Position numbers and translations under genes: made by a program
Notes under the pieces: generated by a model
Told to the model about the DNA's origin: nothing
The model's input: only the letters and a program-made list of their open reading frames with translations
Database searches by the model: none
In this document: piece after piece, positions 3,201 through 44,220 of the stretch
Layout: each line of letters begins with the position of its first letter
Position numbering within the stretch: position 1 is the stretch's first letter
Assembly: GCF_964355755.1 (NCBI RefSeq)
Contig: NC_092680.1
Location: forward strand, 3,573,001-3,637,000
Length of the DNA: 64,000 nt
Source of the DNA: Antedon mediterranea
Taxonomy: Eukaryota; Echinodermata; Crinoidea; Comatulida; Antedonidae
Reading direction: 5' to 3'

Positions 3201-6200
3201 TTTTAATTTAAATAATACTTATTCAGTAGTTGACATAATGAATACAGTCTTGGTATGGTGTCTGTTACGGAGACAACAAATACATAAGACTGACTTCATT
3301 TATATGCATTTTCAAATTGAAACATACGGCAATGTGATCAAACATTTAAATTATAAAATATATAATTTAAATTATAATTTATGGGGTTTTTAATTAATAG
3401 AAAACAAAAATTCACAACTTTATGTTAAAATAGAGTTCGAGTTAAAATAACGATTGTGAGGCATTTGATAATGTAAATAGGCAAACTGCCTTAAAATGTG
3501 TCATGTTTCGAGAAACTATTCTCATCATCAGAACAGAAAACAACGCCTAGAGTACTTATATACCAATATTAATACTAATACTAAAATGTACAGCACTGAC
3601 AAACGATTAGTTTTTCCCATAAGCTAAGCACTTCTTTTTGATTAGTTTATTCTGGCATATGACTGCATCATAGTCGCTATATACTTGAACTCTACAGAAG
3701 AAACTGCAAGTTACGAACAATACAACGTAGAAAGATGCCAAGGGAATAAAGATAACATTAGTTTATTTGCGGCCTAGCCTGGCAGAGAGGTTTCCAATCT
3801 TCTACATTTAATAGTTGTTAAAAATGAAAGCTAGATAAAAAGAAGTTTCCTAAATGGATCATAACTTTCTCTTTAAAACTTTCCAATAAATTATATGGAA
3901 AATCTATAAAAAAAACGGATTTCTAAAAAAAAAATATTCTTCTCTGTCGGGAAAGTTCCTTAAAAAGTAGTAATCAGTACTAATACCCAATTCACATGTA
4001 AACATAAATGTAATTATATACAAACAATCTCCTAAGATAATCTTACCGAGTTTAAATGCTATATTTATCAACTATGTAGTCCGTCACGGTGTAAAGTAAA
4101 TGCTGTGTAAAAACTCATTAGTAAGATACACGTATTGGTATACTGCAGTTTACATTGATGTTACATCGATGTAATGGGGCTTGTTGATTGCAGACTTGCG
4201 TTTCAAGCAAAGGCTTGTTTAGGGACCCTACAGTAAGTGGCCCTCCAATGCTTGGGGTGTTTTTAGCCTTTTAGATATATTTTAATGCCTGTTTGTTCCT
4301 TTGGGCCCCCATAAGTGCCAGAGTCCCCAGGGTTTAGACAGTCAGCGCTCATAGCCTTTAGGCCACTGATTCTAAGATTTTACATTGAAAACACTTTCAC
4401 ACATTTGTATCAAAGGTAACAATTTATCATTTTTGTACTGTCAATTGGGTAAAAGTGATTTGATACATTAAGTATAATTGTGAATGTACAAAAGTATATA
4501 CTCTGTCTACACTATAATCAAACTAGTTGGACAAAACAAAGTGTGATGTATACCAAAATATGGTAGTCATGTGCCCAAATATTGTAGTGATATGCCCAAA
4601 TATAGTAGTGATATGCCCAAATAAGGTAGTGATATGATATCATCGTAAATATGGTAGTGATAATGCCCAAATAAGGTAGTGATATGTTAATATTTGGGCA
4701 CATTACATTTTTTTGTAACATAAAGTTTGACAGTGTAGACAGAGCTTAAAAAATCGCTGATAATTTCCAAAACGTCTTTCAATCAGTAAATCACCTGCCA
4801 GTCACCCCAAACCACCTCTTTATATCAGGGAATTGTACTCCGTTTATATCCATATAACCAAGATCTAGCCACCCACTCTTAATATAGCAACGCCTTACTG
4901 TAACCATTCAGCAACTACTGTACTGTACTACATTATTAATATCAGTAATTGGAATGTGCCATTTAAAAAAACTGCACCTGAACGTTTTTGTTATTCATTC
5001 TGCTTCGCGGACATCATAAATAATTTGTCATGTATAACAGAGATTAGCTTCCTGTACGGCAGATGAAACCATTGATTTTATCATTCCATTTCTCTTTGAA
5101 AAGAAAAGCTATTAACTCGATATTAAATATTTAATTATTGAAAACAAAAATAGAAAAAATAACGTTATATCTTTGCACATGTTATCCAGGGAAATTTAAA
5201 ATACAGTAAATATCAAAGCTTCTGAAATAATACAGAACAGTTTAAAATGAATATAATGAATGGCTATACAGTAGTACTGTAAGATACAGTGGAGTGGAGC
5301 TGTGGCTTGGTGGTTATGATGCTTGGCTACCAATCTAAGGGTCCTGGGTTCAAGTCCTGTCATATGTCAGGGTTTTTTTTCTCATGACAATTTACAACTC
5401 CACTCCACTCCACTTTATGTAGAGCATCTTGTGTATATGTTTGTCTTGTGAAATTTTAAATAGTTTATCCATCCTGTAATTGGCGGGTTACTCGCTGTTG
5501 GATGAGTATGAAATAAATAAATAAATAAATAACCCCTACATAATAAGGACACAACAAAGTATCCCCTTAACAGGGATTGATGGTATGTAAAATGTATTTA
5601 ATTTTTCCTTCGTTTCTCAGAAAATATTGCCTACTGAAATAGGGGTTTCACCTGAATAGGGATCCTCTGAATAAGGGTATCCTCCGAATTATTATTATTA
5701 TAGGGATATCCCCTGAATACTGTAGGGGTATACCCTGAATAGGGATATCCCCTGAATACTGTAGGGGTATACCCTGAATAGGGATATCCCCTGAATACTA
5801 AAGGGACATCCCCTGAATACTGTAGGGACATCCCCTGAATAGGGATATCCTCTGAATAGAGGTATCCCATGAATTGGGGCATCCTAAAGAGGGTACTGTA
5901 AGTGTAACAAAAACAAAACACAGTGTTTGATCATTTTTACAACCTACAGTACATTTTGCGATACTTTTTAACCAATTGAAGATTTTTGTAGGCCTTTTAT
6001 CGTATCTGTATGGGATGGAAAATTAAAAAAACTAAATGTCATTTGCATACAAAAATTGTTGTCTAAGAAAAAATACAGTTATTATTCTTTATATATCAAA
6101 CAGAAATATATTTTATGCAAATGAGTTAATTACATATGCAAATGTCTGACAGGTGTTAGTATAATGCCGTATCTATTGGTTACATCTGCTACTTTAAATT

Positions 6201-11789: not shown

Positions 11790-14700
11790 TTATGAAAATA
11801 TTTTAAGAAGAACGAACGAAATTATAGTTAAAAAGATTGTCAAACCGGCGGGTCTGCTTTCAACAGCTGTATTGCCCGGTTGCCTATTTCTTATCCTGAT
11901 AAATTTCTCACCCATTATGCTAAAGTCTTCTAAAACGATGTTTTTGTTGTTGCCACCCTTGGCGACCTGAACCAGGGACACTGTTGCATTAGCAGTGTTA
12001 GTGACATTATCGAAAACAAGAGAGCCATTGTCAATATAAGTTGGCGGGAAGTCTGCATCACTGCACTGTGCAATCTTTACATTGAATGTAATCTGCTGAC
12101 CGTTGTCAAGAATCTCAAACGTGTAACAATCTGCAGGCCTAATCCTTTTCTCCAGCGAACTATGATGAGACATTAGATCTTGAATTAAGATACGTCCGTT
12201 GTCTTCTATGGCACATTTGATTCCTTTGATCGGTACAATGACAGCCCCGTTGGTCATAGGAGCTGCTCGGATGATAATCTCTGCACTGGATGGACCTGGA
12301 GAGCTCTGAACGTTTCGATTGACAAACTGAACTTTACCTTTAACAATTAACGGTTTCCTTCCATCTTTGGACGACTTCCAATTATCAATGGTCTGAATGT
12401 ACCCAGAGTAGCTATCACCCACAATGGCAGCGCCTTCTGTGCTCAAGTATATATAACCGCCTGTCATTGTGCTAGAGTTACCTTCCCATAGATTTTTATT
12501 CCAGACCTTTGGTGTAGAAGTGGTAGGGGGAATCAAAGCCACGTCCGATTTCAATCTTTTGATATGGTCAGGTGCAAGATCGTAGAAGATTCTACGTTTG
12601 TCTCCATGAGAACGAAGCTGTTCCAAACCATTGTAATTCGTCAATGGATCTCTGACCTTCGACCATATGGTCACAGAGTACCGATTTGTCAGTCCAAGAA
12701 TCCATACAAATTTCTGCCAAGATTTAGTTGCCCATATTGCTCGGAAATTGTAGGTGATCGGGTGGGTTGTGACCGTGGAACTGGCGTCAAGCATGTCAAA
12801 GATCATTGTCCATGTATAGCGATCCTGGCGATTGACTCCTGCAACCTCAGAGACGTAGCCCAGTGAGAAGGTCGCGTTCGGAAAGACGGCGTTGACAATA
12901 GCGACAAACTCTGTAGGCTGGATAAGGTTGACTGAATTTTGACCGTTTGGCCCGGCGATTATGTCAGCGTGAAAGAACAGTGGCACTCTCAACTGAGCCT
13001 CTTTTAACAACATAATATCAAGAGCTGGTTGAACGGCCTGTACGTCTTTGAAGTCCAACACAATTCCTAATGAAAACAAAAGATAAAATCTGGTCAATAA
13101 AAAAAACAAGAAACAAATGAAAAAAAAGTTTTTCCTACTGTATTTTCCCCTGTTTTCAAAATCCTAATATCAGTTTTAACAAAGTTTTCATGGCGAAAAA
13201 CACTAGTAAATCACCACGATCTGCGGTTTTACGTCTCAATGTTTCGGTTGTTCTTGTTGATAGTAACGACATAATAATTTCCACGGCCACAATGCTTTTT
13301 TGGGGATCCTTTTTTTGGTACTGTGTTTGTTCTTATTGTGCAGTGCTGTTCTTGCTGTGCGCATGGAGGCATACTGTGTGGTGTCGAAACAAATAAAAGC
13401 CAATACCGAACATTATGGAAGGTGTCCATTTGCACAGGGAATAATCTTGGATTACCTTTGTTAGTGTATCTTGTCACCATATCGATCCATTGTTCCAACG
13501 TGATGTCGCTCACAGACATTGAGCTAGGAGCCATTATTGGTACTTGGTTCGCCGTTCCTCTATCACGTAGGCTTACATCTGCCTCAAGCATCATAGCATT
13601 ACCTGTAATGAAAAGAAACACCAACTGATAAGAATGGAAAGTTTGCAAAATAAAGTTCTTTAGTGTAGACTGCTGTAAATATGTTTTGTGCAGTTTGCCA
13701 AAGATGTTCAACTGGTCAACACTAGCAAACTTCTTGAAAGTTTTTTTTGAATTTGCAAACAAAACTTTGGTAAAGTTTGATATTGTAAAGATTTGTGGAA
13801 GTTTCTTTTCTGCAGTTTACTAAAGTTTGGTACGGTCAACACTAGCAAACATTGAAAAAGAAAAATCTTGAAAACTCGGAATTTTTTAAATTTGCAAACA
13901 AAACGTTGGTAAAGTTTGATATTGTAAAGATTTGTGGAAGTTTCGTTTCTGCAGTTTACTAAAGTTTGTTAACGGCGCTGGTCTACACTGGTAAACTATA
14001 CACATTTTTATTCTTTATTCCAAATTTATCAAGAAGTTTCCAAAGTTTGCTAGTATCGTTGTTGACAACCTTTATACTATAACTTAAAGCTCTGTCTACA
14101 CTATCAAACTAGATGTACCCAAATATGGAAGTGATTCCCAAATACTGTAGTGATATGGCATCATCATGTCCATTATGGGCACATCACATTTTCTTTGTCA
14201 GTGTAGACAGAGTTTGAGTTTCCAGACTCTAAGTTTGCCAACAATGATTCGGTAAAACTTTGCTGACAAGTTTTACTGTTCTTAAAAGTATGTTATTTGT
14301 TATTTTTTACCTAAAAGATGAAAGTGTTCAATAATTGTATACAAAGCCAGATGGACTATACATACCTTCCAGTGCCCGTGTCAGTTTGGTGTTACTGTTT
14401 AAATCATGTGCCCACACTATGTTCAACCCATCTCTCTGTGCTTGCGGAAAGAAATACAATATATTGTCTTCCGAGTGGGACAAAGCATCTGGAATTAAAA
14501 TCACAGTTATTTTTAAAAATTTTGAATGAACAGTGAATAGAAACGCTTCTTTAAAACATTTTTTTGTATATTAAAGGGAATTGTTCCCCAAAACATGAAG
14601 AATAAAGATCAGGATAAAACTAAATATTGAATAGGTAATTTGTAGTTTTAATAAAGTTATTCACTGTAGAAAAAAAACCCAACAAAATATGATTTCCCTT

Positions 14701-17700
14701 AGAAAGAAAGCCAAAATAAACTGTTAAATTTAACAACAAGAACTTGTTGTCAGACAATGTGCTTTCGGATGACTTTGACTTATTTCTATTAATGGTAATT
14801 TGAGGTTAGTAGTTCCTTTCTCTTTCAGTTTTTGGTCAACGGTCAAAGTGAATAACTGTTATATTTACATTAAAATGGAATATTCTAGAAAAAATGATTC
14901 AAAATGATTTTTCAGATTACGAACTAATTAATTACTTATTACAAAACGTTTAGAATTCTAGTTGATGAATTCTCTAGAACGGACAGGAACTTGAATTAAT
15001 AAATATGACTTTTTGAGGTTATCCTTTCGTTACGAAATCGGCCATTTCCAAGTCATTAACACAATCTTTTATGGTTAAAACATCGATAATGGAAATGAAA
15101 ACTTCATTAACACGATAAATTTACATGATTCATTATGTATTAATCTATAAATAATGAGGTTAAATAATATAATGGAATAATGTTTATAAAATTAAAGTAA
15201 ACATCGTCTCAAGTTCCGTAGAACAATAGGCAAAAACCAGATGAAATAAATGGAACAATATTAGGCAGAATTCAAATTTCTTAAGCTCTGTCTACACTAT
15301 CAAACTGACGTGATGTGCCTATATATGGACATGATGATGTCATATCACTACCATATTTAAGCATATCATCACCATATTTGGGCACATCACACTTTTTTTT
15401 GTCAAACTAGTTTGATAGTGTAGACAGACCTTGTGTAGGCCCTAAAAGTCTACCGGTGCTATAAAAAAACACATCGTGAACTGGCGTAAAAATAATCAGA
15501 CTTAAAAATAAAATAAACAAGTTTAAGGTAGGTTTTTCGTCATGTCTGAAACATAACTATATTAAAAAATATATGTACACAAATATTTATGTGGTATCAC
15601 ATGGAATCCAAAATATTGTAGATGGGAGCAGATTGCTTTACATAAAACTCTTTTTAAGTTACTTAATCTTAATAATCTAAAAATCAAAACTTTATGTTCT
15701 TAAGTACCGTATCCGAACAAAATATCAAGTGACCATGCCTTTGAACGGATGTAGCCTAATTTTTATCATAATTATGATAATCATTTTGTATTTCCTGCAA
15801 ACCAAAATAAAGAAACGTAGGCCTATAATAATTATGTTTCTATTATCAAATTACAGACTGATATTTTTCGGAAATTGTGATTCATTCTATCCAATGCTTT
15901 AACATGGTGGTTAGCTTATCACTTTATTTGGCAAGGAAGTTTAAATCTAATCCCAAGGCTGATAGAATTCAGATCTTTCTGTAATTATTGTTATTCAGAG
16001 GTAACAGTTGTAGCCTCTGTTGCCCGGTAATTCTGTATACGTGATTTAACCAAAGGTTTTATTCCGAATGAGATTGTTTTCGTTCTGTTTCGTTAGATAA
16101 TTATTAAATGAATATATTATGCTTCAAATTAACCTTTTGTGCCATGTCTTTTATGCTCTGTCTACACTATCAAACTTTATGTGATGTGTCCATATAATGA
16201 GGGTAGTGATATGCCCAAATATGGTAATAATATGACTTCATCATGTCTATATATGGGCACATCACATTTTGTTGTCACATAAAATTTGATAGTGTAGATA
16301 GAGCTTGAATTTGTAAACAATGATTTGGTAAAAGTTTGCTAGTGTAGGTCAAGATTTATTGAGATTTAGAACCATCTGAGGCTTCTATTATTAATGAATA
16401 ACTCAGATAAAAAGAATTTTTCAGTAGATCAGAATTACAGCCAAAAGCAAGGATGTGTATTATAAAACTTGTAAAAATAAACTAATCATTAATATTATTA
16501 TTTTTTATTTAGAAAACTTTCAACATGTTTTGTTTAGGCCTAGTTTTGTAGTTTAATTAAAATGTATACAGATTTTTAAAAAGTAATATTATTAAACTAA
16601 ATTATACAACTGTTACTTGCATTTCTCTCCATGTTCTTTAATTTCGGTTTAAGAATGATAGGCATATTATATTTATATCAAAGGCAAGACATCGGCATTA
16701 GTAACATGTCACAGTTAAATATATTTCATGACTCAGAGTACGTTTTAGACGGCCGGTGCAAAAACTGTTTGGCTGCAACTTTGGTTTGGTCGACTTAAGC
16801 TCTGTCTACACTATCAAACTAGTTTGACAAAAAAAGTGTGATGTGCCCAAATATGGTAGTGACTGATATGACATCTTCATGTCATTTATGGGCACAACAC
16901 ATATTTTGTCACATAAAGTTTGATAGTGTATACAGAGCTTTAAATTATCGTCTTTAAAAGAAAGGTTTTGAATAGATATTCCGAACTAATTTGCATAAAT
17001 GTGTAAAACAGTGAGGATTTAAATTTTATGCAAAATTCAGAACAAAACTTGAAAATGAGTAAACCTCGTACCGATTTAAAAATCAGACAGAACATTTATT
17101 GGACCTCTGTTATTGACTTGTATAATAATCTGTCTACTCTATCAAACTAGTTTGACAAAAAAAGTGTGATATGCCCAAATATGGTAGTGATATGCCCAAA
17201 CATGGTAGTGATATGACATCATGTCCATATTTGGGCACATCACTTTTTTTTCGATAGTGTAGACAGAGCTTAATATCACCTTATTTACAAAAACAAATGT
17301 TGAAAAATAAATCATCATAGTTATTATTTTTATAAATATTAGTATACTTTTATCATCATTATTATCGTAGGTCTATTATAAAAAACAAGGCCAACAGCCA
17401 TAAGTCGCGTGCTAAAAAGCATAGTGATACCGGACCGACAGACAGACAGACCGACAGACCGACCGACCGACATAGTGAACTATAGAGACTAAAAATCATA
17501 TACAGTGCATTTGTTATTAGTTACAGTTAACCCAACGGTTTTTGTCGTGTTGATTTTCTAACCCATTAGTATTATATATTTTAGTCCAAATAATTATTTA
17601 AAAACAATGCAAGAGTAGGTATCTCTTGGAATAACAAGCATTGAACGTTGTTACAGTTTGGTTAGAAACATATACGGTGTAAACAACCGAAAAAGTTTAT

Positions 17701-18420: not shown

Positions 18421-18581
18421 TTAAGCTCTGTCTCCACTATCAAACTTGTTTGACAAAAAATGTGATATGTCCAAATATGGTAGTGATATTTCTAAATATG
18501 GTAGAGATATGACATCATCGTGGTACATGGGCACATCACATTTTTTGTAACATAGAATTTGATAGTGTAGACAGAGCTTAA
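18421..18581. mobile_element. TTAA-ended hairpin MITE, copy 7
   Basis: TTAAGCTCTGTCTCCACTAT to GATAGTGTAGACAGAGCTTA. Confidence 0.9.
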
Positions 18582-20581: not shown

Positions 20582-23011
20582 GTATTAAACTTTACCAGAC
20601 TTTTGCAATCTCCGACAATAGGACTACAAATACTATCATTTGTGATTCGCTGAGAACCGAGATCACAAACCTCGGTAAATTTGTCAAGAGACTTGCTAAG
20701 ACACTGAGGAAAACGCGAAGCGAAATGCGTTAAGCGTCAAAACGAAACGAGTTCCCAAAATCAAAGGTTATAAGCGTAGCGCGGAGGTATGTTTGCTAAA
20801 ATCACCGCGTTGAAGCTAAAATCGACCGACACCTAACGCGTCACATTCGCAAAAAACACATGTTATTATTAGTTGTGCGGTTTAACGACTGGAAGAAAAA
20901 AAAGGCACAAGAACTCTCCGGTGGTTTCAGAATTTATTACGTATAATTATACTGGACTTATTATAGTATTCACAAATATTAATAATTGAATTAATAAATA
21001 ATTTTATAAAATAAAAACACATTTAGGCCTAATAACATTTCAAAATAATACAAACACAATTAAAATACTACGTTTAAATAAAGTATGTTATCAAATTCTA
21101 AGGACAATAGAACTATAACAAATTAAATCGGGTAAACTTGAAAATATGTAAGCCTAAATGTGGAAATTATACAAAATACATATTGTTTTAGGTGTAGCTT
21201 GGTGAGGTAACGTGGTTGCCTTCGAATCAACCTCAAATGAGACACTTTTTTTGTAATTATTGCGTATATTAAAAAAAATAACCGCCTAAAAAATTAAAAT
21301 AACCAATCGGGTATAGTTAAACTTGAAAAAAAAAATCAAAATAGGCCTACAATCTACATATCAGAAAGATCACAACGATTTTAAGACTATACTAAATATT
21401 TATTAGATAAATATGCCTTCTGGTTTGATAAAATGAAATATCTATAGTCATTTAACATTACAAACCAGATGAACTTTTACAATGATTTATTAGGTAGTTG
21501 AAAAAAACCAACTATTTTGATAAGACTTGATCAGTGATGAACGTGGTAGTTTCAGGGGCCTAGAAATAATAAACTGTGAAAATATATTAATGATCCTAAA
21601 AAACTATCAAAATAGTTTTAAAAAATTAAGTATGGTTCGCCTTAAAATTAATGTGATCTTTTTTCGGTGCATAGAGATATTATTATCAACTACAATAATA
21701 ATGGAAACAACCAAATGTTCAACTTGTAGAATTCGCAATCTATTTACTGTGCTACAAAAATAAAAAAGGTGATATAGTTTTAAAGATTATATATTATAAA
21801 AGTTTCGCGAAATATTTATTTCTTTTTAGAAAAGGCAGGGTATAATTATCATTAAACCTCTGAGTAAGGCATTTTATGTGGAAGTACGTTTTTCTTGTGA
21901 GTTGTTAAGTGAGTTGATTACAAACGATGAAATACTTTACACCTAAAATTGAACAACTACATTATATTATACACATATTTGGTTGGTGTCAAATCATACA
22001 ATAAAACATATTATATAGTATATAGGAATTATTTAGCAATTATTGGATCATAAAAGTTTTTGACAATTATCACATGATTTTGGTATAATAAATATTGCAT
22101 ACATTATCATGATATTCTGTGTTCATATATATTAATTACTATCTGTATGATCAAATCATTCAGAATATCCTGTAAACTTAACATAAATTTGACATCTGTC
22201 GCTCACATTTGTGTCACATGCGGCAATTTTACTACGTTAGGTTATGGCCTATGAATGACACAGGTGGCACCTGTTATACATATGACACTGTATCAACGGA
22301 TTTTATATGATACTGATGAATTATAGATACAGTACTAAGAATCGGCTAGCATGATCTAAATACATACATGATTATCATTAAATATATCAACAAAAAATTG
22401 TAACTGTGATTATCATCGAATAAAGTACTGTAATACAACCACAGATTTGGACATAATTCTGGAAATATTTGTTAATTCTTTGAAAAAAAGTTGTTTTCAT
22501 ATATAAATATAGGCTAAACATATATAACCCCACCCCCCTCATCAGAGCCATACCTTTGTTACGACATTCAGTTCAAGGTTTTTAAGAGTCATGTGATACG
22601 TGGCAGCCATCTTTGTGTCCCACTATTCCTATGTAGAGTATGGAGTTGAATCTCCTTTGTTATAAAAAAAAGTATACCTTTCACAAGACCTTAACTATAA
22701 AATTAAATATCAAAACAATCCCTTTGTTTAAAAGTTTTTTTACAAGAATACCAAAATGTAATAAGTTACATGATTTTAAACAGCAAAATGTAAACACACA
22801 CACATGGAGCATGCATACACACAAAAATAACTTTTTTTTCAATTGTGTAACTCTTAAATATATGGCTCTGTTATAACCCACACCTCCCCAAGCCCGCACA
22901 CACCATCCCAAGCCTACCCAACGCCTCCCCTACCCCATCCACATCCAAACTTTTCATATATTCTCTATCTTTTTAATTTAAAAAATATTCCTATTACTCC
23001 TAAAATTCTTA

Positions 23012-23182
23012 TTATTTATCTCTTTTATACATTTTAACAATTCCTAATCGATGTAATTGTTCCCATAATTTGTTTTCGGCCCCATTATCATGATTTGCAT
23101 AATTTACATGTCTCTGATATTTTGTATCGTAATAATGTTCAGAATATTTTACATAGCTGCCACCAAAGCCATAAATATCAAC
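23012..23182 (-). CDS. Alternative terminal exon b of the sialyltransferase
   Basis: Acceptor TTTTTTAG, then [10 protein letters not shown]...[35 protein letters not shown] and stop at 23012. It keeps motif III (HYYD) and motif VS (H-x4-E), is phase 0 like exon a, and a possible ATTAAA poly(A) signal (minus strand) lies at 22972-22977. It is used only if exon a at 23770-23937 is skipped, because exon a ends in its own stop. Confidence 0.85.
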   Translation of the reverse strand, partial: VDIYGFGGSYVKYSEHYYDTKYQRHVNYANHDNGAENKLWEQLHRLGIVKMYKRDK

Positions 23183-26100
23183 CTAAAAAAAAAGAAAAGT
23201 TTTATGAATAACAAGGTCAGAGGTTAGGGGTCATTTGGTTTATAGATTGGACACAATTCATACAATTTCATTTGTCATTAAGGATATAGCTTGCTATCAA
23301 AGGTAAATTTAATGTCTGGTAACTTCATTTATGAAGACAAGAATTGTGCACGCCAATCAAAAAACGCTGTAGTAAAAAAATAAACCTGACTGACTGATCG
23401 CAGCATTTATAAATGGATTTTAGATACAATATATAATGTTCAGAATTGATTAGTAGAAATGTATAAACAAACACATAGTAGATGTTAGACTTCTTAATCT
23501 TTTTTATGTTAGTCCACCAGTCAGCATTTTGATTTTTTTTGTCTGAAAATACGTATGAAACGCCATATTTATCTTTTTACTAATTTCGGTCTAGAATTTA
23601 TACTTAGTAGATGTTAGTCAATGTAATGTAGTAGTCCATTAATAACAACGAAATTGATCTATATCAATTATAGTACAACTTATATCAATGATGGTGTTAT
23701 GGCTGCAATGTAGTCACTAGCAGTATAGCAATGGGTTTATGATCCTCAAATACTCCTTTAAATAGATTTCTAATCTCTTTTATACATTTTAACAATTCCT
23801 AATTGATGCAAATTTTCCCATAATTCGTTTTCTGCTTTATTATCGTGGTTTGCAAAAAATCTATGTTTCTGGTAAGTTTTTTCGTAATAATGTTCAGAGA
23901 ACTTATCATAGCTTCCTCCAAAACCATAAATATCAATCTGGAACACAAAAACGTTGAAGATAGTTAAATACGAATGTACGTTCCATAAAAAGATATGGTA
24001 AAAAGAACAGTTGGAAGAAGTGTTCATCAGGATGAGGATATGGAATAAAGGCCATCATTCAAGAATAAATTGGCAGCAAAGTCAAGCAAGGCCAGGGTCA
24101 GATAAGGTCAAATAAGATCAGGGTCAATCAAGGTCAAATAAATGCAGTAAGTTCAAATAAGACTAACATCAAATAAGGTCAATGTCAAATAGAGACAGGT
24201 CAAAATAAGATCATGGTCAAATAAAGTTAAATTCAAGTAGATTAAGGTCAGGTATGGTTAGGGTCAAGAAAAGTCAAGGTTGAGTAACAGTACTTATGGC
24301 AAGTTGTTGGTGAAGACGACAGATTCCGTACCAAAGAGTAACATTGGAGTCAATTAGAATAATATGACGTTTTTATAATCAACAAACATGACTTGTACCT
24401 CCATCGTCTGTATTACCATCAAAAAAAAAAATTTCTAATTTCACTGCTCATTACTGTAGTAGTTGCATCTTCAGTATATACCTATGGAGTATGGGCTCTA
24501 AAATTACTCTATTCATCTAAGGGGACCTGCCCATTGTAATGTTCCAGTTAAAAGAATATGGTATAGTTGCATTTAAAGTAGTAAATAGATTTTATATACA
24601 GGCACCTTTCAATTCATGTCATCTGATTGGTCTAGTTATTGCCATGTCCTCGACCTACAGACTGGCTAAACTGCGCATGTCTGTTTCATCTTAAATAACG
24701 ATGATGATGATGGACTGAGCGGACAGATCATGTTTCTCTCTGAAAACTATCTTATAATGAATAAACTATCTTTAATAATACAACCAGATCTGTACACACG
24801 TGCAACGTGAAGATTGTGTAGCTAGCCCTAGCATAGCCTACGATGGTTAACTTGTGTAGATGTAGTTGACTTAGAGGATTTAGTAAGTTTAGCAGCCAGT
24901 AAAAATATGAAGAAACAAATAAAGTATGCTTTTTGAATATTATTGCATATTTGGAAGCAAAATATTATCAAATGCACGCCTTTTGATGTTTGCTCCTTCG
25001 CAGCGAAAGAACGATGAACTGTGCCAACCAAGTCCATGTTATGCGTTCACTTCGGCCTAGCCTACAACCGAATTGTGTGGTACAGTGTATAAAACAAATA
25101 TATACTGGCCTTTCATTGAGACATGGTGATCTAAAGACTATACTATCTCCTGAGACGAAGTTGAGAATATAGGAAAAAAATGTTTATGTGTGTAATGTAT
25201 CGTTTCGTTATTGTCTAGAACTATCTATTTACTTCTTCTTTATTGTATCAAATTAAAACAATTTAAAATACAAAAGGTAGCCAAGATATAGCAGAAGCTA
25301 ATCAAGCTTGGTACCTTTTATCTTAACTAACTATACTATATAGTATGTCTCCAGATCACAGAGGGCTACATTTTTAACCATGCCCCTCAGCCCAGTCAAT
25401 ATTTGTATCGTATTGGTATACTAAAACATATTCTAGTTTTAATATAGCATGGTATAGCAGTATAGTGGGATTTGTATAGCAGTATTGTATAGCATTAGCA
25501 CGGTATGTGTAGTATTGGTACAGTAACATTAGTATAGTATAGTATTAGTATGGTAGATTAGATAAAAACATTCATGCAGCACCACATACTGTATATAAAT
25601 ACCGTATATATTTGAATAAACTCCCGCTTTGAATAACCCCCAGGGCCCTTAATTATTCACAAAACATTTCTATTTGTAATAGAATTCATTGATTGACATG
25701 ATCTACAATTTACCAAGCATTTTGATAATTTTGATGATTTGATTTTTTACTGTATTTTATCACTTCTCGATATTAATTGTGTTGTAGTATTTTTTATCTA
25801 GAAGTATTTATTTGATTAGACATAATAAACCCTTACCTCGAATAAACGCCTCCCTCGAAAAAAAAAAATAAAACATGGGCGTTTATTCAAATAAATACGG
25901 TAGTACAATGTTTTATAGTATATTATATTCATAGTAACATTGATTCATATAATAATGATTTTACATTATAGGCCAAACATTTACCATCTAGCGATTAGTT
26001 GAAAAAGCATCATGTGATTGAGTGGCCGACAGTGGAACCGTAATTATGTTGCCATAACATCGGCAGGGGTTCGAGGCTCACTCACTCCATGGTTCTGGTG

Positions 26101-29100
26101 GTAGAACGAGTCTTCTCGGATAAGGATTATAAACCGTAGGTCCAGTGTACACATCTAGCTCGTGTGCACTTTAAAGAACCTAGTACATCTTTCGAGACAA
26201 GTAGGAGTTACCCCGGTGTATTAGTTCATCACAGCCACTGATCATAACTGGGCCCTCTGGGAGACCAGTCTTTGACTGAAGAGGTCGCCCCAGTATAAAT
26301 AAATATTATTTCAATTCAATCAATTAGGTGGGGATTCTATGTCAGAACGTAGGCATAGTAATTAAACTACAATAGTATTTACTATTCCCTGTAAAAATTA
26401 CATGGCCTGGCCTCTACTTTGGTTTGCAATTTAATGGAAGCGGCGGATAAATTGAATAAAAATTTACTTTAAATGTTTGCTCTATACTATAAAAAAGAGT
26501 TCTGGTTTAAACTAAAGGCAGAGGTGTCTGAAATAATAGGCACAGAGGTCCATAGTTTTAACCAGAAAAATAACATATAATTGTATTTAATAGAAGCTTC
26601 AACTTCTACACAATACAAAGGCAAAGTGCAACGAAATTAATTTGACCAATCACAATGCGATAGATCATAATCCATTGTGTCGTGATTGGTCAATTTAACT
26701 ACTTGCATTGCAAAATCTGGTAGAAGGGAAGCTATCACGACAGCCCTTGCTTGGTAAGCATGCTCAAATGATCTTAATGCTCTGTTGCTTATTGTGTAGC
26801 ATGCAATTTTGCAGCTTCAAATAGCATCTTTATAAACGCAGCGACCTGTATAGTAATTATATAAAGTAGAACACCTTCTTAGGACCTCCTATTCAGGGGA
26901 CAGTTTCGAATTAAATGAATTAGGGGCAAAATATGTTTTTCTTGGTCAGGTGTTACCTTAAAGATGTATTATCCCCCTGAAAAATAATTGTTAACAATTT
27001 TTTTGCTGAATATGCCATTTTATTGTCACATAATAGTTATCCACTTTAACAAAAAAATGGATCTAAACAAATTTTATTTATCTGAAAAAAACTGTAATTT
27101 AAAGCAAAAATGATCAAATTGGCTGTCAGCCAATGGATTTCTTCGTTGAATTTAACTATTTATTATGTTATTTTATATAAAGTGAAAACATTTTTGTTTT
27201 CGTTTTTTGTCTTCGGAAGTGATTAACTACAAAATAACCTATTCAAAATCTGATTTAATTATTCTTCATTTTTCATGTTTTTTAGGGGACAATACATCTT
27301 TAATAAACTGTCTCGCAGGGGCGTTCCCTTAATGGGGGTTCTATTCTATATAATAGTAATCAAACAAACTAACCTGATCACATGTATGTAATGCCGTCAA
27401 TAACATAATAGCACCTGTTGTAGGACGATGTACATTTTTATGTTGATGTTTTGAATTCACCCAACTAAACAAACAATAGATAATCAATCAACATATGACC
27501 TTAAAATTAAAATGTCAATATCAAATCCCAAATACGATTACTTAAGTTTGGTCTAAAGTGAGACAATTCGGCCCACAAAGTGGGACATTTCAGTCTGAAA
27601 GTTTGGACCAAATCGTCCTGGAATCATACAAAACACTACCTTGTTGTAAAAATTACAATAAATACTATCGTATCATAAACACCAGACCTAGATATTTGTT
27701 TGTGTAGAGGGAAGGGTACTGTACTGTTAGAGGCATACTGCCTTTCTAATGCCTCGTTAATAGTGCAGTCAATCTTTCTACTATCATTAAATATTATCTA
27801 TTTGCAAGTCATAAACATACATAATTTGTATATTCTATGTAAAAATTTCAGGCTGCTGTTTTGTAGTCTCTGCCGTCTTTTAATATGATTGGTATTTCCA
27901 GTTTTCTTAAGCTCTGTCTACACTATCAAACCAGTTTGACAAAAAAAGGTGACAAATATGGTAGTGATATTCCCAAATAAGGTAGTGATCTGACATCATC
28001 ATGTCATGGGCACATTACATTTTCTTACCTCCATTTAAGATATCTTTCAAAATCAGGATGTACAACTTTTACATTGTCCTTATTTAATCCTTTTGGGAAT
28101 TTTGGAGGACTCCTGAAATAAGAAAATAAACAGATTTTTATGTTTTTTTTTTTAAATTTTTACACCATCCAACAGTAGCAACATGACTAGCCTGCCAACT
28201 TTTTCAGTGGGCAATTAGTGAGACATTAAAGATGTATTGTCCCCCAAAAACATGAAATTCAGAAAATTAATTTAATTAGACTTTGAATAGGTTATTTTAT
28301 AGTTTTAATAAAGTTAATCCCTTCCGTAAAAAAAACCCCCAAAAATAATGTTTTTTCATATAAAATGACAAATAAATGGTCAAATTCAAAAACACCTATT
28401 TGCTGGCAGCAAAGTTGACTATTTTTGCTCTAAATTACAGTTTTTTCATGTAAATACATTTTTTTTTCGATTCAATTTTGTTCAAAGTCAATAAATATTA
28501 TGTGAAATTTAAATGGCATATTAAACAAACAAAATATAAAAAATATTTTTATAAATTTTTAATTATTTTTTTCAGGGGACAATACATGTTTAAATAAGAA
28601 TTATATATAGCAAGATGTGCTACGTCTATTGTGTTAACTTACCTATGGTATTTACCACTGCTATATGGTGGAGATTTATCATGCAAAACTGCATTTAAAT
28701 ATTCATACGTCCATGGACTATCAGCAAAAAGTAAATATCTTATTCCCTGCAATAATTAAAAATGTAATTAATAAAAAATAATTGCTTCACATATAATAAA
28801 ACTGAATTAACAAAATAATCAGAAATAATTTGACTTAATCAACACAGGTACAGTAGTGTGATATTGATTTCACGTTCAATGAACTGTTGATTGTCTAAAC
28901 ATACAACTTGTGATCTTGGCACCAAAAACAAAAACCAACCATCAGCTGAATAAATACCGTATCACTGCACAGATATCTAATACTTAAGTTTTATTTTTTG
29001 TGTTAATAATTTTTTGTAAATAACCAAGTGACCAACCACAAGCAATAGTTGCGTGAACACAAGCAATGGTCGTGTGACCACAGGCAATATTCATGTGACC

Positions 29101-32100
29101 ACAAGCAATGGTCGTGTGACCACAAGCAATTATCATGTGACTCATGGCAATGGTCGTATGACCACAAGCAATGGTTGTGTGACCACAGGCAAGAGTCGAG
29201 TGACCAAAAGCAATAGTCATGTGACCAAAAGCAATAGTCATGTGACCACAAGCAATAGTCATGTGACCACAGGCAATAGTCATGTGACCACAGGCAATAG
29301 TCATGTGACAACAGGCAATAGTCATGTGACCACAGGCAATAGTCATGTGACCACAGGCAATGTGAGTGAGTTTTGAAACAGCACTACAATACTTCTACAA
29401 ACCTCTTGATAAGGCGGTGAGCGAAATCCATAACGCGCACTTCCGCGTAACGTGTTAGATAATGTGATCAACGTAAAACAGTAGAATGAAGTACGACTAC
29501 CAACGTCTTCTTCAAATCCAGTCGTTAGTGCTGTGTTTACCCTAAATAAATAAGAGTAATATATTATGCAAACATTGCATGGAGGTGAAATATAACATCT
29601 GGCATCCATGAGGGAATGGTATTTTTCTTCGAGGGACTGTATTTTCCCTTACCAAATTACGTTCACATATTTACATAGGTTATGTAATATAAATTTTACA
29701 TTTTGTCTTAATTATTGTCTCATACTAGAAGAACAGCTGCATATAAAATTTCAAAATTCAATTCTTGATATGGTTTGGGCGGCCTTTTTTATCATCCTCA
29801 TAGATTTCTTCATCTTTAATAATTTAATTGATTAATTTTCAGTATATGACAGAGTCAATTATAATTTCTTTTATTCTATGCCTGTACATTTGTATATAAA
29901 TGATTAAAATATATTTTTTCCATTTTCAATAAATTTTATAATCAGTGAAAATATTTTATTTATTTTACTTCAATAGATTGTAAGTCACTACTCAAACAGC
30001 TGAGCATACAAGGTTTTGTGAATATTTGATGAGTTATACTTGAGTTATACCAAAGAATATATATCACAAGAATGAGTATTCCGCGATTTTTGCATGAGAA
30101 ATTTGTAACAGAGAGCTCCAGAGAGTGATGCCCGCCCTCATAAGGGCGGATGTATACATACTAAATAAGACTTGATTTAATAGATATTATACATGTCACA
30201 TTAAATAGAATTATGATAATAGTTTTGCAATTGTAAACGGCCTATTCCTTACCATTGCCCGTGTAATACTCTACGCCCGGTAAATTAAGTATTGTTTTTA
30301 TGATATAAATTAGTATAAAATACATGTTATTAATAGGAAAAAATGTTAAATGTCATTAACATTTATTTGTTTTACCAGAAACAAGTTAAATATAGGAATA
30401 TTATTAAACTATCCTACGTGAAAACGCGTAAACACCAACACGCCCGGTCACGCTATTGTAGCGCCCGGTTGATAAAGCAAACTGTTTATACGGCAGTTTT
30501 TACTAAATAAATTGCATAAAACGAACAATTAAATATCCAAATAGTATTTAACATGATGTTGGCATGTAGTTGATAACATTTTTTATCATGAAAATACTAC
30601 CGGTGGTCCAGCCTTTGATTAGTGAAAAACTGAAACCGTCACAAAAAGTTGTATACATCCCAGATACATCCACACTTATGGCGGCGCCCTACCACATGGA
30701 CAATATTACTGTTACAGGGAAAATCGCGGATTACTCATTCTTGTGATATATATTCTTTGGTTATACTATCAGGGATGTCACCAGCTTTTTGGAGTGCCGG
30801 TCGGCAAATTTCCCGGGGGGGGGGGGGACCCCGGGGTATCCTCCCGGGGGGTTTGTCGTTATTTCTGCGAAACATAAAGAATTATGAAAATAAATAACAA
30901 CAAATTGCGTCAGGTCTAGGCCTAACCTTGTACCACCGGGGAGTCGCCGTTATTATTCGCGAAAACAAAAAAACGCTCACGAAATGAATAGCAATAGATC
31001 GCGTCAGGCTTAGGCCTAGCCTTGTAGACACTACGACCACTAGGCCTAGCCAAGGATTAGATAGATGCCCAAAACCCAAAATCTGAATTCCACAAAAACG
31101 GGCGCTTCTTTATTTAGGCCTAATCCCTAATCAAATAATGTAGATAAATTTTTAGCCTAGACCTTACTACTTGTTGCTCGATATAATGTTCGTGTTCCTT
31201 TGCGCGAGAGTTTTTTTAGCGTATTCGCGAATTCCGGATTTTTTGTTTCACAACTGTGCGGCAAGCATGTAGTGCATGGCCGGCAAGAACAGAGACACGT
31301 GTTTATGGGTTAACTGAAGTTTAGCAACCTGAAGTTATCCCAGGGACGTGTAATTATTGTACCATGCTCGGCGATCATAAACGAACGAACTTGCCCGGTC
31401 TCACTGAACCATGCGCATGTTTTTTTATTTTTTTTAATAGTTCAAAAATGTAAAACTAGTAACATAATAATTATAAAGCAGGGTGACAAAACATTCAGCA
31501 ATTAAAAATGATTTTGTTTGGGTCTATGTAGTTGTACATTTTTAATTACTGCGTACTTGTTTGTATTTTTAATCTGTGCAAAATAAAACGCTTGAATGGT
31601 CGCTATGTGAACTTTAAACTTGTACACTGTGCTGTGTAGCACGTTGTTCGCCATGACTCACAAGCTGTAACAATGAATACCAGGGCAGGGTAGGTCTGGT
31701 ATTGTGTTACAAATAAAGTAACGTACGTAACCACGGAAACATTTGCTGTAGTCTTTTGTCTTATCTATATGAGGCTAGCTTGTCTGTTATTAACAATGTG
31801 CTAGGTAAAATGTTTTAGTACGAATTTTAGTTAGGCCTAGGCCTAATATAAATATCGTAATGATTAATAAATAATAGTGGTGGTCGACAGCCTGTAAATC
31901 CTGGTCGGAAATGTTGAGTGCTGGTCGGGGCCGACCAGCGCCGACCAGCGTGGTGACATCCCTGTACTGTAACATTGCATCTGTTATTTCAATCAAAAAT
32001 TTAATTTCAATTAGAAACATTAATCAAAGGCAAGGAACAATTTTTATTAGAATCGAACATTTTATATCACGTACAGTGACGTTACAAAACGTTCTGTTTA

Positions 32101-35100
32101 CGGTTTTAGCGAAACGCAACCAACATTTTTTATCAGCAATCTGCGGATAACCAATTAATAAATAAGTTTAGGTAGCAGCATTAATATTGAACTGGAACTA
32201 AAGGAAATTATAGGATGTATGGTTCACTGGTCAAACAGCGACTAATGTTGACATTAGGTGGTTGACTAAATGCTTATTTTTAGCTAAATGGTACTCTCTT
32301 AAGCTCTGTTTACACTATCAAACATTATGTGACAAAAACATTTCACTGAGGTAATATGTCACTCGGTCTCTGGGCAACTGTTCTCTGAGATAACGCCACA
32401 TTCTCTGTATGATTTTCTGGGCTTTACACAGTAAAGATATACAGTATGGTATATTTCTTTCGGCCACTCACTCACTTATGGGTAGCAATTACCTACTGTA
32501 TAATGCATGTATGTATTTAACCAAAGCTCTATCTACACTATCAAACTTTGTGTGATAAAAAATTATGATGCAGCCAAATATGGTAGTGATATGCTTAAAT
32601 ATGGTAGTGATATGACATCATCCTCATCATTGATTACCTGAACACATAATCATGGGCATCAATTTCTTGCCCTTTTCTTGATCCGTTCATAATGCCTCCA
32701 TTACCTATGATAGCACAAGTGATACAGCCTCCTTTTGGTTTTCCATTATTTAACCTATCATCAAACATGTATCGGTTATTTGGTGAAGATAGTCCTTCCA
32801 ATGCTCCCTTCACCTCTGCAGAAAAAGATACAATATTAATAGTAAATGATGTATCAAATATGGTTTGACTTCACTACAGATCTATAGATGTGTACACCAT
32901 ATATCCTCAGGTATAACCCCACTCCCTACTTTATGAAGGATTTCACAAACAGGCATACTGTATAGTCCCAGTATCGACTTTTGGTATGGTTGTAGGCCTT
33001 TCAGTTCCGAAGGGTTTTTACAAGAAATTCTTACCATTCATTTTTTTTCTGAACCAGGGTTTCTCTGGGTATACAGTAGTCCCACCCCACAATTTCGTGT
33101 TCTAGGGTGTGAGATCAAACCGGAGAATGTACGGTATTAATGCAATAATTCTTTTTGCTACGTGATGTGAAAGCTTTGTCTAATACTATCAAACTAGTTT
33201 GACAAAAAAAGTGTGATGACATTCCCAAATATGGTAGTGCTATATGTGCTATTTTTTTTGTCACATAAAGGTTGATAGTGTAGACAGAGCTTAAGTCTGC
33301 TGAAATTGAAAAGTGTACCTACCGTCTGTATCAGAATCTAGATATCCATTTACGCCATGATATTTACTTAATCTTTGAAACTCAGAATTTGTGAAGTGTT
33401 TATCCCAGATGAGGACCGGCATATCAGCAATGTACCTGGACTGCATTTCAGGCATTGTCATCATTTTGCGCCTTACACTTGTTGGACAACTCTACATAAA
33501 GCACAAATTAACATTTTTGTAATGTACAATAGCATCGAAAAGATTATCAATTTTAATTTTTTATTTTCCCAACCAACAGTAAACTCAAGGTTCAACACTT
33601 AAGGAGGGAACAATGAATATCTTCGTCGTCCTAGAATTCAACATTTTTTTTAGGGGGGGGGGGGGGGAAATGCAACCAATCATGTGTTCATGATCACTCA
33701 TGCGAATCGAAAAGCACACCAAACACCCAATGGATATAAAAATCGCAGCTATTCGCTCTTGTGCTTATTTTGTATCCCATTCCATTAAAAATGTTGATGA
33801 TTGATAAAACAATTTACCTAGTGTAAAACAGGCTTTAAGAGGACACCTTCGGAGCTATTTAGATTGAAATAACTTTACAAAATAATTCTGTATTGAATCA
33901 ATAAAAGTATTTTGACTTGATAATATCTAAAACACTGTATAAACACACATGATAATTTATGTCAAATATTACATAGGTCAGACACCTTAATTAATCAATA
34001 AGTGGCTACAAAAAATCTATTATTTTATAGACTGTTACATTGCAGCTGTTGAGGCTGGCAAGAGGACACATATTGACACGCATGGCATAACAGTAACCTA
34101 TACAGACAACAACAAAAAATTTAATTAAGTTAAAACATCAAAGATTCACAATCTAACTAAAATTTTATTAGAAATTGGTATAAAGCAATTGTTAGTGTTG
34201 TTTATGCATATCATGTTTATAATTAATACTAATAATATAATAAAATTTAAGCTTGTTAAGCTGGTTGTCCATTAAGCAAATTTGATGTGTGAATTGAATC
34301 GAAAAAAATGTCAGCTTATTAAATATTTATTCGTTTATCTTCAAAATCTCTTTACTCCAACAAATGAAACTTTTTATTTTCGTATCATTTAAATTAGTAC
34401 TTTTTTGCGAAGGGAAAAATTATGCAACCAATCAGAACTCGGAAATTCAAAAAGACACGAAATGGAATTGAAAATTGAAGCTATTCCCACTTGTACGTGT
34501 GTACATTTATATTTTCTAATTTTAGTTTAAAATAAATTTACCATATGACGACGAAAGAAGAAAATGAGTCTATAAATACTGTGGTTTGTGGAGATGTAAT
34601 TGTAATGGATGTTGCATTAATGCATTATTAATATCCAATTAATTTATTGTAAGAAGTAATTAGCGAGTACGATATTAATTATGAATGTTTAATTAAGCTA
34701 CTACATTATTAATTGTAGTTTAGTGGTTTACATGCTTGCCTACCAATCCCAGGGCCATTGGTTCAACTCCTTCAATGCACTTTCACACTTTTAATTACTG
34801 TAATCTGTGAGTACAACATTTATTATGTATAGTTTGTTTGATTGAGCTACTGTACTACTGTATATCATTAATTATCATGGTTGCCTACATATCCCAGGGT
34901 TGTAGGTTCAAATCACACTTTTAATTACTACATATTTCCACCATGATTACTGTAATCCATGAGTACTAAATTTATTATATGTTTGAATTGATTAAGCTAC
35001 TATTGTATCATTAATTATCATGATTGCCTACTTACCCCAGGGTTGTAGGTTCAAATCATGGCACTGTACATTTTTAAGGATGTGTATATCACACTACCCA

Positions 35101-38100
35101 AAGCCCATTCAGGTAAATCAAATGTACTGTATCTATCTATCTTCAAAATTCCTTTCTGTGAAAAATTCTGGTTCCTTAGAGTTTTTTGCTTAATGAAATT
35201 AGTAGTTAATACATTTTTTTATACTCTTTCCCGGAAGAAAATATGTTTAACCAATCAGAACTCAGGAAATGAGTTATCATGTGTTCATGAGCACATGCAA
35301 ATCGAACAGATTAGATAAAAAGAAAGTAGAAAACAGAGAAGCTAAAATTTTTCTTTACAAAAATGTTGAACTGACATAAATAAATTTGCATACAATAGTG
35401 GAAAACAGGGCTACAGTCAGAAAGCCTCGATTCTTTTTCTTCATACAATACCGTCAATACGCACATTTTTTTCCCCCAACAAGTTCCACCAATCGGATGA
35501 TAACAGAGTAAAATGATTTTCTGTACCATACCGGAGAAGATTACACAAACCAACAGTGGTGTTGACAGTCTATTTATACTGTACCTAGCTTACTTGCATA
35601 AAGGCCAATCTACACAGACAAGTGGCAACGGTTAAGAGGAAATCAGCGTACCTTGTCTCGCGTAGAATCTGTATCTATCCTGAGTGGAAACCATTGTGTA
35701 AATGGTCATAAGAAATAACATAGATTCTATATTTTTATTACCGCTCGTTTGTGTCAATTCTCCTTTAGCCAGCAAATGCCCTCTTTCTGTCCGAAGAAAA
35801 AAGGTTAAGTATGACAATGCTGCTGCTGAGCACACTTATCTTATCGTATCTTCCGCGATCATCAGGGTAGAGGGGTTTTGATTGTTTCTACAGTACACTG
35901 TTCAATATATAAAAAAATTATTTAATGACTTACCAGATACTGTAAATATTGGTTGTCATGGTAATATATCTTCTCACTACCATATTCATCATTCGTCTCG
36001 GGTTCTTTGTTGATGAGCGACTCTGGTATAAAATCAGGAATGGGTCGTTCCGTTACTACTTTACGTGGAACTGGCGTGGCTGTAAAGTTTATATTTTGAG
36101 CAAGTGCTCGGATACCGTCTGATATTTTTAGTTCTAATTTCTTATCACGTTTTGAGTCTGGATATTTAAATGTTGTGTCCATTAATTTGTTAAATTGATT
36201 AATTGTTCCATTTGCAAATTTTGATAAACTGAAAACATAAAAAAAGATCAGAAAAATATTAAAACAATAATTGACTATACTGTACCCCATTGAGGAGTAA
36301 TCAATATAAAATTGTGAACAGTGAAAACAACCTTATAAGGTACAATTCCCAACTTATTGCTGTTTGCTTTCATCCTATTTAAACAGACTTTGGTAAAATC
36401 TATGCTTGCCAACTCCGGGCTAGTACAGTACAATCCAAAGTTAACTAACACAAAAGTCAAGGAAAAGATATATTGATACAACTCCGCACCAAAATGAATT
36501 TCATTGATCTAAAATACCAGCTGTTGGCTTGCCAATGTGCAAAATACAATGATATTATTATTTATACTGAGCTAAATAAATAGTAGTAAGTAAATACTAG
36601 TAAGTAGTTTACGGAGTAAACTTTACAAAAATTGGCAACATATGTTCTTGACAATAAATCTAATGAAACTTTGATTTCTCAGATTATCAAACACAAAAAA
36701 TGTACAAGGGTTACAGTAGGGAAATAGTGAACTGCATTTTTCTTTCATCAATCACACTTAAGTGAGATATTTCTTTTAAATTTCACTTACAACTCAATAT
36801 TTAAGTATTTCACTTTAAATTGTATGCATTTAGATCGGAGATTTCTTTTTATTGTAAGGTATTTCCCTTGGCCTAAAATGTGAATGGTGAATACGGCCAC
36901 AGTACTTAAAGGTGTTACGGAATTTGGCAAAAGTTTCCCCTAGATGTTTCATAATTTTTGGGATTTTATTTGTGTTACACAAGCTTGTTGAAAATAAGCC
37001 CTTTCTTATCAGTGGGGGGATAGTTCAAATTACACAGTAAAATCTCTATTCTTTTGTACACAAATTTTGTAAATAGAGAGGCATTTTAAAAAGCTATGAA
37101 AAATAAATGGTGTGGTAAAAAATGTTATCAGATGATTAAATATAGGTAATATAACTTGAATATTACATTTCTGATATTTTTATTCAACTTCAGATTTTTA
37201 TTTTCATGCTATAGCAAAAATTATCTACCGTATATCCACCATCTTTTTTCACCATCTAGGGAGTCACCAGACATGTTATTACATTAGGTTAACTACCTAA
37301 CTACTGAAAAAAAGTCTTCCTGGTTTTTATGGAAGAATTTTGTCAAATTTTGTATTTGACCATATTAAGGGAAATTCATGTTTTTTCGTCTCGATTTCTG
37401 TTACAAATATTTGATTTATGTACTATTAATCAAATATTATATTTAAAATTCATGCCTGTACCTGAGCTTTAAAAAATGTTTACCTTTTTTGCAATTTGAT
37501 GTGAACATTTACCGGAATTGTAGAGTAGCCCGTTTCAGACACACTCATCACAATAAATGAAATGCTTATTACAACCAATACGCCAAACATGAATATACAT
37601 CTTTTCAGACTACAAATAGAAGAAATAATCAATATTTTAATTAATTTTTTTCAGTTTTTTTTCTTTAGATAAGTACAAAGACAAAAACGGAAAAAAATCT
37701 GATTAAAAGTTTAACGTCCTAATGATCTAATCACTGTCAAAATGAAATATGAAAAGAAATATAATTGTAATGTAAGTAACAATAATCAAAATACAATTTA
37801 TTTGATTTGATATAATTTATACATTGCAAAAATAATACAAATTGTGTAAATGTTGTCAACTAGGCCCTACAGGATATCAAAATATTCTGTTTTTTTTTTC
37901 AAAGATTGATTTATTCAATTTTTTAACCATTGTGGCCAGTTACCTTTGTTAATGTTTTATTACCTTTTTTAAAAGTATTATTTCTGCAATATTATAATAT
38001 TACTACTAATTTATTTTCTTACTTGGTATTGTGTTTCAATAAAGTGCTTGTTAATGTTATTAAACTAGCATACAGATAATGTTTGAACAAGAAATCACAT

Positions 38101-42541: not shown

Positions 42542-43881
42542 TCAGGAATATAAAATATTGTTTGTTTTCGTCAAAAAAAAAATTATGTATAATAAGAAAA
42601 GAACTGAGACAAGAAAATAGTATCGAGCGGAGTACGTACGATAAAAGAACTAGCAAGAAGCTAATTGACTCTGATTGTCAAGTCAAACATTCAAAATATG
42701 CCTACTTGGTATCGTTTACAAGGATAGTAATTTCATTAAACAATGCTTCAGTTTAATTGTATTTTTGCTTGTGTATGTTTATCTAGTAGTACGTATAGGA
42801 TAATACTCTCGTATCATGGTGTGAACAACGATTCATACAAATATTCGATATTTGTAAAACAACTCTGAAGTTTGCATCAAATAATGCGCTCGCATGTAAG
42901 TATGTAAGTGGACATGCTCGAGGGGCGTGTTTATATTCTTCTTTTTTAATTTTTATTGCACGTGGACCAACTCGGGTTTTTAGGCATAGGCCACATTATG
43001 TGTCCCCAGTCTTAGGGAAGAGAGATACAGAGGAAAGAACAATCTAATCCGTTCACTTAAAGGCCTAAATACTGTATTAAATAATTTCTGTCAATATCTT
43101 TGAACGTCATGTCTCTTGCTGCGGCCCTCTATGAACTATTTCTCAGGGAAAATGTATCGTGCACGAGTAGTCTGATCGTGCTCTTACGTCAAGAATTAAT
43201 AAAATATGTTTTGAGCAATCTGTTTTGGATTTCATCAAAATCGACGGAAAGTAAATTTTCTTACGATCGTAAGTTTGAAGTATTTAAGAGTTATTAAAAT
43301 ACGTAATCTTATACGAATTCAGGCACGTAAACTAGCAATTTTATGGAGGAGTTCGATTAGAATTTAGAAAATTTGGAGGATTTGATAGACTACCAATTAG
43401 GCTTACGATTGTATTAAAAGTTCTTAAAATAACACTGGACGGGCGATTTTAGCATTTTGCCATTTTTCGAAAAATTCCCTGTACTACCGGTATAGTACAG
43501 AGATAGCGAGTGAGGGTCTTCACCCCTCAGCCTCTCCATGGTTGGGGATATGGTAAGAACATTGTGAAAGAACCTATTTTGTCGAGTAAACCGGAGCAAA
43601 CAAACGGCGGTCTAAACATTCCAGACTAACGGCCTGTGAATTATTACTAAGTTACGTTAATCAATAACCTTTGTTAATATAGGCCATGGTTGTCAAGAAT
43701 CTCCCAATTAATAATAATTATGCCTAATAAAGAGATTTTAAATATCGTAAAATACTATAGTCAATGTTATACCAAATATATAAATGAAATGATCACATGC
43801 ACTGATTTGAAATGCGTCGATTGTAATAATAGGCCTACTGAAATAAGTGATTTCAAAGTGCGCCATGTAACAGTGTTATAA

Positions 43882-44220
43882 AGTGCGACAGGTAACTTGA
43901 CAGTTACTGCAATGTGCGACAGCTCAGGTAAAGCGAAGTGCGATAGGTAACTTGACAGTTACTGCAATATGCGACAGCTCAGGTAAAGCGAAGTGCGACA
44001 GGTAATTTGACAGTTACTGCAATGTGCGACAGCTCAGGTAAAGCGAAGTACGAAAGGTAACTTGACAGTTACTGCAATGTGCGACAGCTCAGGTAAAGCT
44101 AAGTGCGACACGTAACTTGACAGTTACTGCAATGTGCGACAGCTCAGGTAAAGCGAAGTGCGACAGGTAACTTGACAGTTACTGCAATGTGCGACAGCTC
44201 AGGTAAAGCGAAGTGCGACA
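43882..44220. repeat. 55-bp tandem repeat, ~6 copies
   Basis: The unit contains GTGCGACAGGTAACTTGACA, GTTACTGCAATGTGCGACAG and CTCAGGTAAAGCGAA. Copies differ at one to three positions. Each unit contains a related sub-pair GTGCGACAGGTAA/GTGCGACAGCTCAGGTAA, suggesting growth from a shorter ancestor; single diverged units (AAATTGCGACAGGTCAATTA) trail to 44260. Confidence 0.95.

Follow-up and report, generated by a model that had tools for sequence, protein, structure and literature searches.

Two tandem last exons in an ST6GALNAC-like sialyltransferase gene of Antedon mediterranea: candidates for alternative C-terminal catalytic segments

Introduction

Can one sialyltransferase gene specify two enzymes through the choice of its last exon? 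The variety of sialyltransferases is usually put down to the duplication of genes, and the residues that govern acceptor choice are normally probed by artificial domain swaps. The question is raised by a stretch of 64,000 nucleotides from the crinoid Antedon mediterranea (the window, whose positions are used below unless a contig is named), the minus strand of which carries a GT29 sialyltransferase gene consisting of eight shared exons followed by two homologous last exons, here called a and b (Table 1). We propose, with an overall probability of about 0.72, that a single-copy ST6GALNAC1/2-like gene long ago underwent a tandem duplication of its last coding exon and that both copies have been kept by selection as alternative last exons. 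The penultimate exon would be spliced either to the first acceptor, that of a, or, with a skipped, to the acceptor of b. This would yield two full-length enzymes with the anchor, the stem, motif L and most of motif S in common, half of their differences lying in the loop that links motif III to the catalytic His of motif VS.

Results

One sialyltransferase gene with two last exons

The shared exons run from 37609 to 27374, all junctions are of the GT-AG type, and the spliced frame stays open from 36228 as far as either stop. The product from 36228 on scores 207.1 bits with a and 207.0 bits with b against Pfam PF00777 (GT29, cut-off 23), and 213.0 and 212.4 bits, respectively, against human ST6GALNAC2 (6apj, E about 1e-61), which is nearest among the solved structures and far ahead of ST3GAL1 and ST8SIA3. 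Going by this closest solved structure, we tentatively assign the gene to the ST6GALNAC1/2-like subfamily, with a predicted alpha2,6 transfer to GalNAc. All four sialylmotifs are present and align with those of ST6GALNAC2 (6apj, 6apl), the best solved relative over 300 residues: motif L lies in the exon at 32815-32638, the Cys of motif S in the exon at 27464-27374, and motifs III and VS in a and b (consensus HYY[DE] for III and Hx4E for VS, PMC8433944). At the N-terminal end, the exon at 37609-37484 is hydrophobic, joins the exon at 36228-35934 in the right phase and is a candidate for the type II Golgi anchor; a start-codon exon (the first coding exon) was not found.

A genome search (354 Mb, 18 contigs) with the shared exons gave about 90 matches, almost all of them in the motif L region, and the gene itself is single copy, its next relatives being at most about 60% identical over that region. 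The sialyltransferase family is very large in this genome, with clusters on contigs C7, C9, C3 and C1. Within the gene, a 21-bp minisatellite of about 15.6 copies (29035-29361), open in several frames, begins about 40 bp past the donor of the exon at 29541-29403.

Table 1. Coordinates of the gene in the window, its candidate 3' ends, and the gene with paired last exons on contig C1 (a slash marks an exon edge)
Feature	Position	Strand	Basis or remark
Probable membrane-anchor exon, hydrophobic segment	37484-37609	-	inferred from hydrophobicity and phase with next exon
Shared coding exon, stem region	35934-36228	-	spliced frame
Shared coding exon, aligns in part to ST6GALNAC2 catalytic domain	33323-33491	-	spliced frame, structure match
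Shared exon that carries sialylmotif L, which binds CMP-sialic acid	32638-32815	-	motif, spliced frame
Shared coding exon directly after motif L	29403-29541	-	spliced frame
Shared coding exon	28643-28746	-	spliced frame
Shared coding exon	28029-28112	-	spliced frame
Penultimate shared exon	27374-27464	-	most of motif S and its Cys; donor CAG/gttagt
Last exon a: end of motif S, III (HYYE), VS (HDNKAE), stop TAG	23770-23937	-	55 residues
Last exon b: end of motif S, III (HYYD), VS (HDNGAE), stop TAA	23012-23182	-	56 residues
ATTAAA between a and b, weak downstream element	23308-23313	-	candidate end for isoform a
ATTAAA poly(A) signal with strongly G/T-rich sequence downstream	22972-22977	-	candidate end for b (or both) transcripts
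Contig C1 gene, shared exons	from about C1:36960710		motif L at 36962616
Contig C1 gene, penultimate exon	about C1:36970874-36970986		ends ...RPTTG/gtaaga
Last exon c, motifs III and VS	C1:36974541		AG/G phase-1 acceptor
Last exon d, motifs III and VS	C1:36976346		AG/G phase-1 acceptor, same upstream exon as c
Last exon e, sole last exon of the neighbouring C1 gene	C1:36953375

The last exons are a tandem duplicate

A sequence-only reading had placed the two last exons at the positions given in Table 1, with a phase-0 splice from the penultimate exon (its exon 9) into each and motif L common to both isoforms. All of this was borne out: both exons lie on the minus strand, the penultimate exon ends ...TALHTCDQ/gttagt, and a and b each have an AG acceptor in phase 0 with it and a stop of their own. 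The same reading had assigned to both exons the second half of motif S together with motifs III and VS; motifs III and VS are indeed in both, but only about the six last residues of motif S (I/VDIYGF) are, its invariant Cys lying in the shared exon. The pyrimidine content of the two acceptors is equal (0.75) and lies in the range shown by the remaining acceptors of the gene.

The two exons are 75% identical in amino acids over 55 aligned residues, 14 of which differ, and 81% identical over 167 nucleotides, a match whose E value within the window (3e-28) excludes chance. The similarity ends at the exon edges, and the flanks are without detectable homology. Exons a and b are adjacent, homologous and of one phase, and each has a stop of its own, as is characteristic of tandemly duplicated alternative last exons. 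Since each ends in its own stop, their use would be mutually exclusive; the stop in a bars a joint coding use with b, unless splicing removes it.

This genome is rich in duplicated sialyltransferase genes, some of them in tandem, so that b could be thought of as the remnant of a second tandem sialyltransferase gene, or else as a duplicate made by the assembly. We consider this very improbable. The window has a second copy of the last exon but of none of the gene's other exons, which rules out a gene remnant, and a and b are spaced by 755 bp. A redundant haplotype or assembly copy is likewise ruled out, because the flanks cannot be aligned while the exon has diverged, and by far more than haplotypes do. 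The genome search found no further copies of the last exon, the next relatives being at most 44% identical.

Protein-level constraint has acted on both copies

Between a and b, dS is 0.64 and dN is 0.15, giving a dN/dS of 0.24 (Nei-Gojobori), which is a pairwise, time-averaged value over 55 codons and is compatible with a recent loss of one copy. The contrast of synonymous with non-synonymous change is significant (Fisher p = 0.001). When one copy was simulated as neutral since the duplication, under a simple mutation model with equal branch lengths, some nine in ten runs acquired a stop, and outcomes that were as conserved as a and b and free of stops made up no more than 0.25%. This rejects a neutral drift of one copy over the whole time since duplication and supports protein-level constraint on both a and b, in what is a small sample. 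This selection on both copies suggests that both exons are in use.

As pairwise rates average over time, one exon alone might be used now, the other being a fossil that worked for most of its past and fell silent recently, and the weak poly(A) context of a would agree with this. However, frame, motifs, stop and acceptor are intact in both copies, the profile scores are equal, and a copy drifting neutrally all along is rejected by the simulation, which makes such a fossil unlikely. Dual use, on the other hand, is supported by the open frame, the equal acceptors, the equal profile scores, the parallel case on contig C1 and the oyster precedent (both described below), and we think it quite probable that both exons are used in RNA.

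Two candidate 3' ends may serve the two isoforms. The ATTAAA at 23313 is the only canonical hexamer between a and b, and because its downstream element is poor, isoform a may run through b to the distal poly(A) site, with b as part of its 3'-UTR. The odds seem to us about even that the choice of exon would be made by competing 3' splice sites, perhaps with such read-through of isoform a to the stronger distal site.

A second gene with paired last exons

On contig C1, an ST6GALNAC-like gene at about C1:36960710-36976558, one of two neighbouring genes of this kind, also has two tandem last exons, c and d (Table 1). The stretch between c and d yielded no exon of a different sialyltransferase. Of their 70 residues, 55 are identical (76-79% protein identity), and 46 of the 64 nucleotide differences fall at third positions. 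Because synonymous sites are saturated, c and d are, as judged by their sequences, an old pair, of earlier divergence than a and b, and one under strong constraint. At C1:36974190-36974600, the acceptor and first codons of c have recently been duplicated in tandem together with upstream sequence (about 95% identical), with a truncated third copy just upstream of c, and the locus seems to be still duplicating its exons.

The intron follows PTTG in the C1 gene and CDQ in the window gene, and each of the four exons is most identical to its own partner, so that the a/b and c/d duplications are probably independent. A tree of the short last exons (57 columns) gave no well-supported branch. Among the roughly 70 last exons found with a, d, an ST8-like last exon and PF00777 as queries, a number that is a lower bound, there was no further same-strand pair.

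What an exchange of the last exon would alter

The differences between the copies are not evenly spread. In the loop, taken as the residues that separate HYY in motif III from the His in motif VS, a and b differ at 7 of 12 positions, compared with 7 of 43 outside it (p = 0.007); for c and d the values are 5 of 14 against 11 of 57 (p = 0.17), and the enrichment pooled over both pairs gives p = 0.004. This loop varies between paralogues too, and the clustering would fit an effect on the acceptor side and a loop that tolerates change equally well. In both pairs, the residue right after HYY[DE] is Lys in the upstream exon and Thr in the downstream one, which may be a coincidence.

Just before the His of motif VS stand RFFAN in a and VNYAN in b, which we take to correspond to residues 366-372 of human ST6GAL1 in the numbering that we assume. 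In that enzyme, residues 366-372 (motif d and VS) form an unstable region, which acceptor binding has been speculated to stabilise, and motifs S, III and VS contribute to the binding either of the acceptor or of both substrates (PMC8433944). An effect of exon choice on acceptor handling is plausible because the differences cluster where this region corresponds; we hold it tentatively, at a little under even odds.

It is also possible, although we do not favour it, that both exons are used and the two enzymes are equivalent in acceptor choice, the exchange being near-neutral or a means of expression control through different 3'-UTRs and tissue-specific splicing. All catalytic motifs are kept in both exons, the loop that differs is one that varies between paralogues, and the sequences after the two stops are different, all of which would be expected in that case. 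However, the clustering of differences beside the His of motif VS and the retention of two old protein versions in the C1 gene hint at distinct roles, as the proposal of two selected last exons would have it. The sequence-only reading had interpreted the arrangement as one gene that could give two acceptor specificities, and of that interpretation the duplication, the phase, the intact motifs, the shared motif L and the protein-level constraint on both copies stand, the specificities themselves being only as probable as the effect on acceptor handling.

Other features of the window

The window also holds a Menorin (FAM151-like) gene on the minus strand at 11793-13816, with at least two coding stretches, and a coding stretch resembling mitochondrial ribosomal protein S27 on the plus strand at 53055-53429, whose score is at the Pfam cut-off. 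Short dispersed arrays of a 21-bp unit (near CCAAATATGGTAGTGATATGC) lie at 4549-4686, 17166-17215, 18462-18511, 32574-32614, 56107-56156 and 62340-62380 and are perhaps part of a mobile element. A near-perfect 55-bp tandem repeat occupies 43881-44220 (6.2 copies, 95% matches).

Discussion

The architecture proposed here has a precedent in another enzyme family. In the alternative oxidase (AOX) gene of the oysters Crassostrea virginica and C. gigas, terminal exon 10 is duplicated, its copies are spliced alternatively, and the two forms are both expressed; the last-exon copies of C. virginica differ at 15 of 41 residues, and the isoform that uses the upstream exon carries the second exon as well (PMC5589949). 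As in the oysters, the last coding exon of the sialyltransferase gene stands in tandem with a stop in each copy, and alternative 3' splicing would give enzymes of the same size; unlike the AOX forms, which were proven by RNA, the sialyltransferase isoforms are predicted from genome sequence.

Among glycosyltransferases, the closest comparison is with UGT1 and GCNT2, the vertebrate clusters with variable first exons, and the N-terminal domains of UGTs bind the acceptor (PMC1885805). Here too, one end of the enzyme would be exchanged at a single locus by means of duplicated exons, the rest being shared. In UGT1 and GCNT2, however, the variable exons are first exons with promoters of their own, whereas in the present gene it is a last exon of about 55 residues, chosen through splicing or 3'-end formation. 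A more far-reaching and doubtful proposal is that, at least twice independently in this lineage, the last exon became an exchangeable acceptor-site cassette, in which regulated splicing would swap motifs III to VS on a constant donor-binding body and give two acceptor specificities per gene, as a mirror image of UGT1.

In the open-licence PMC papers, our searches found no report of duplicated or alternative last exons in sialyltransferases, in agreement with the initial claim that no case had been described in the family. We know of no duplicated last exon in the human ST6GALNAC2 gene.

If the proposal of two selected last exons is true, a gene that exchanges only its C-terminal catalytic cassette would be another route to sialyltransferase diversity. 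The pair would also be a natural chimera, in which donor site, stem and anchor are identical and about 14 residues differ, and so could serve as a direct test of the residues around motifs III and VS on which acceptor choice depends. That the genome holds a second, apparently independent case suggests that this part of the enzyme tolerates or favours such duplication.
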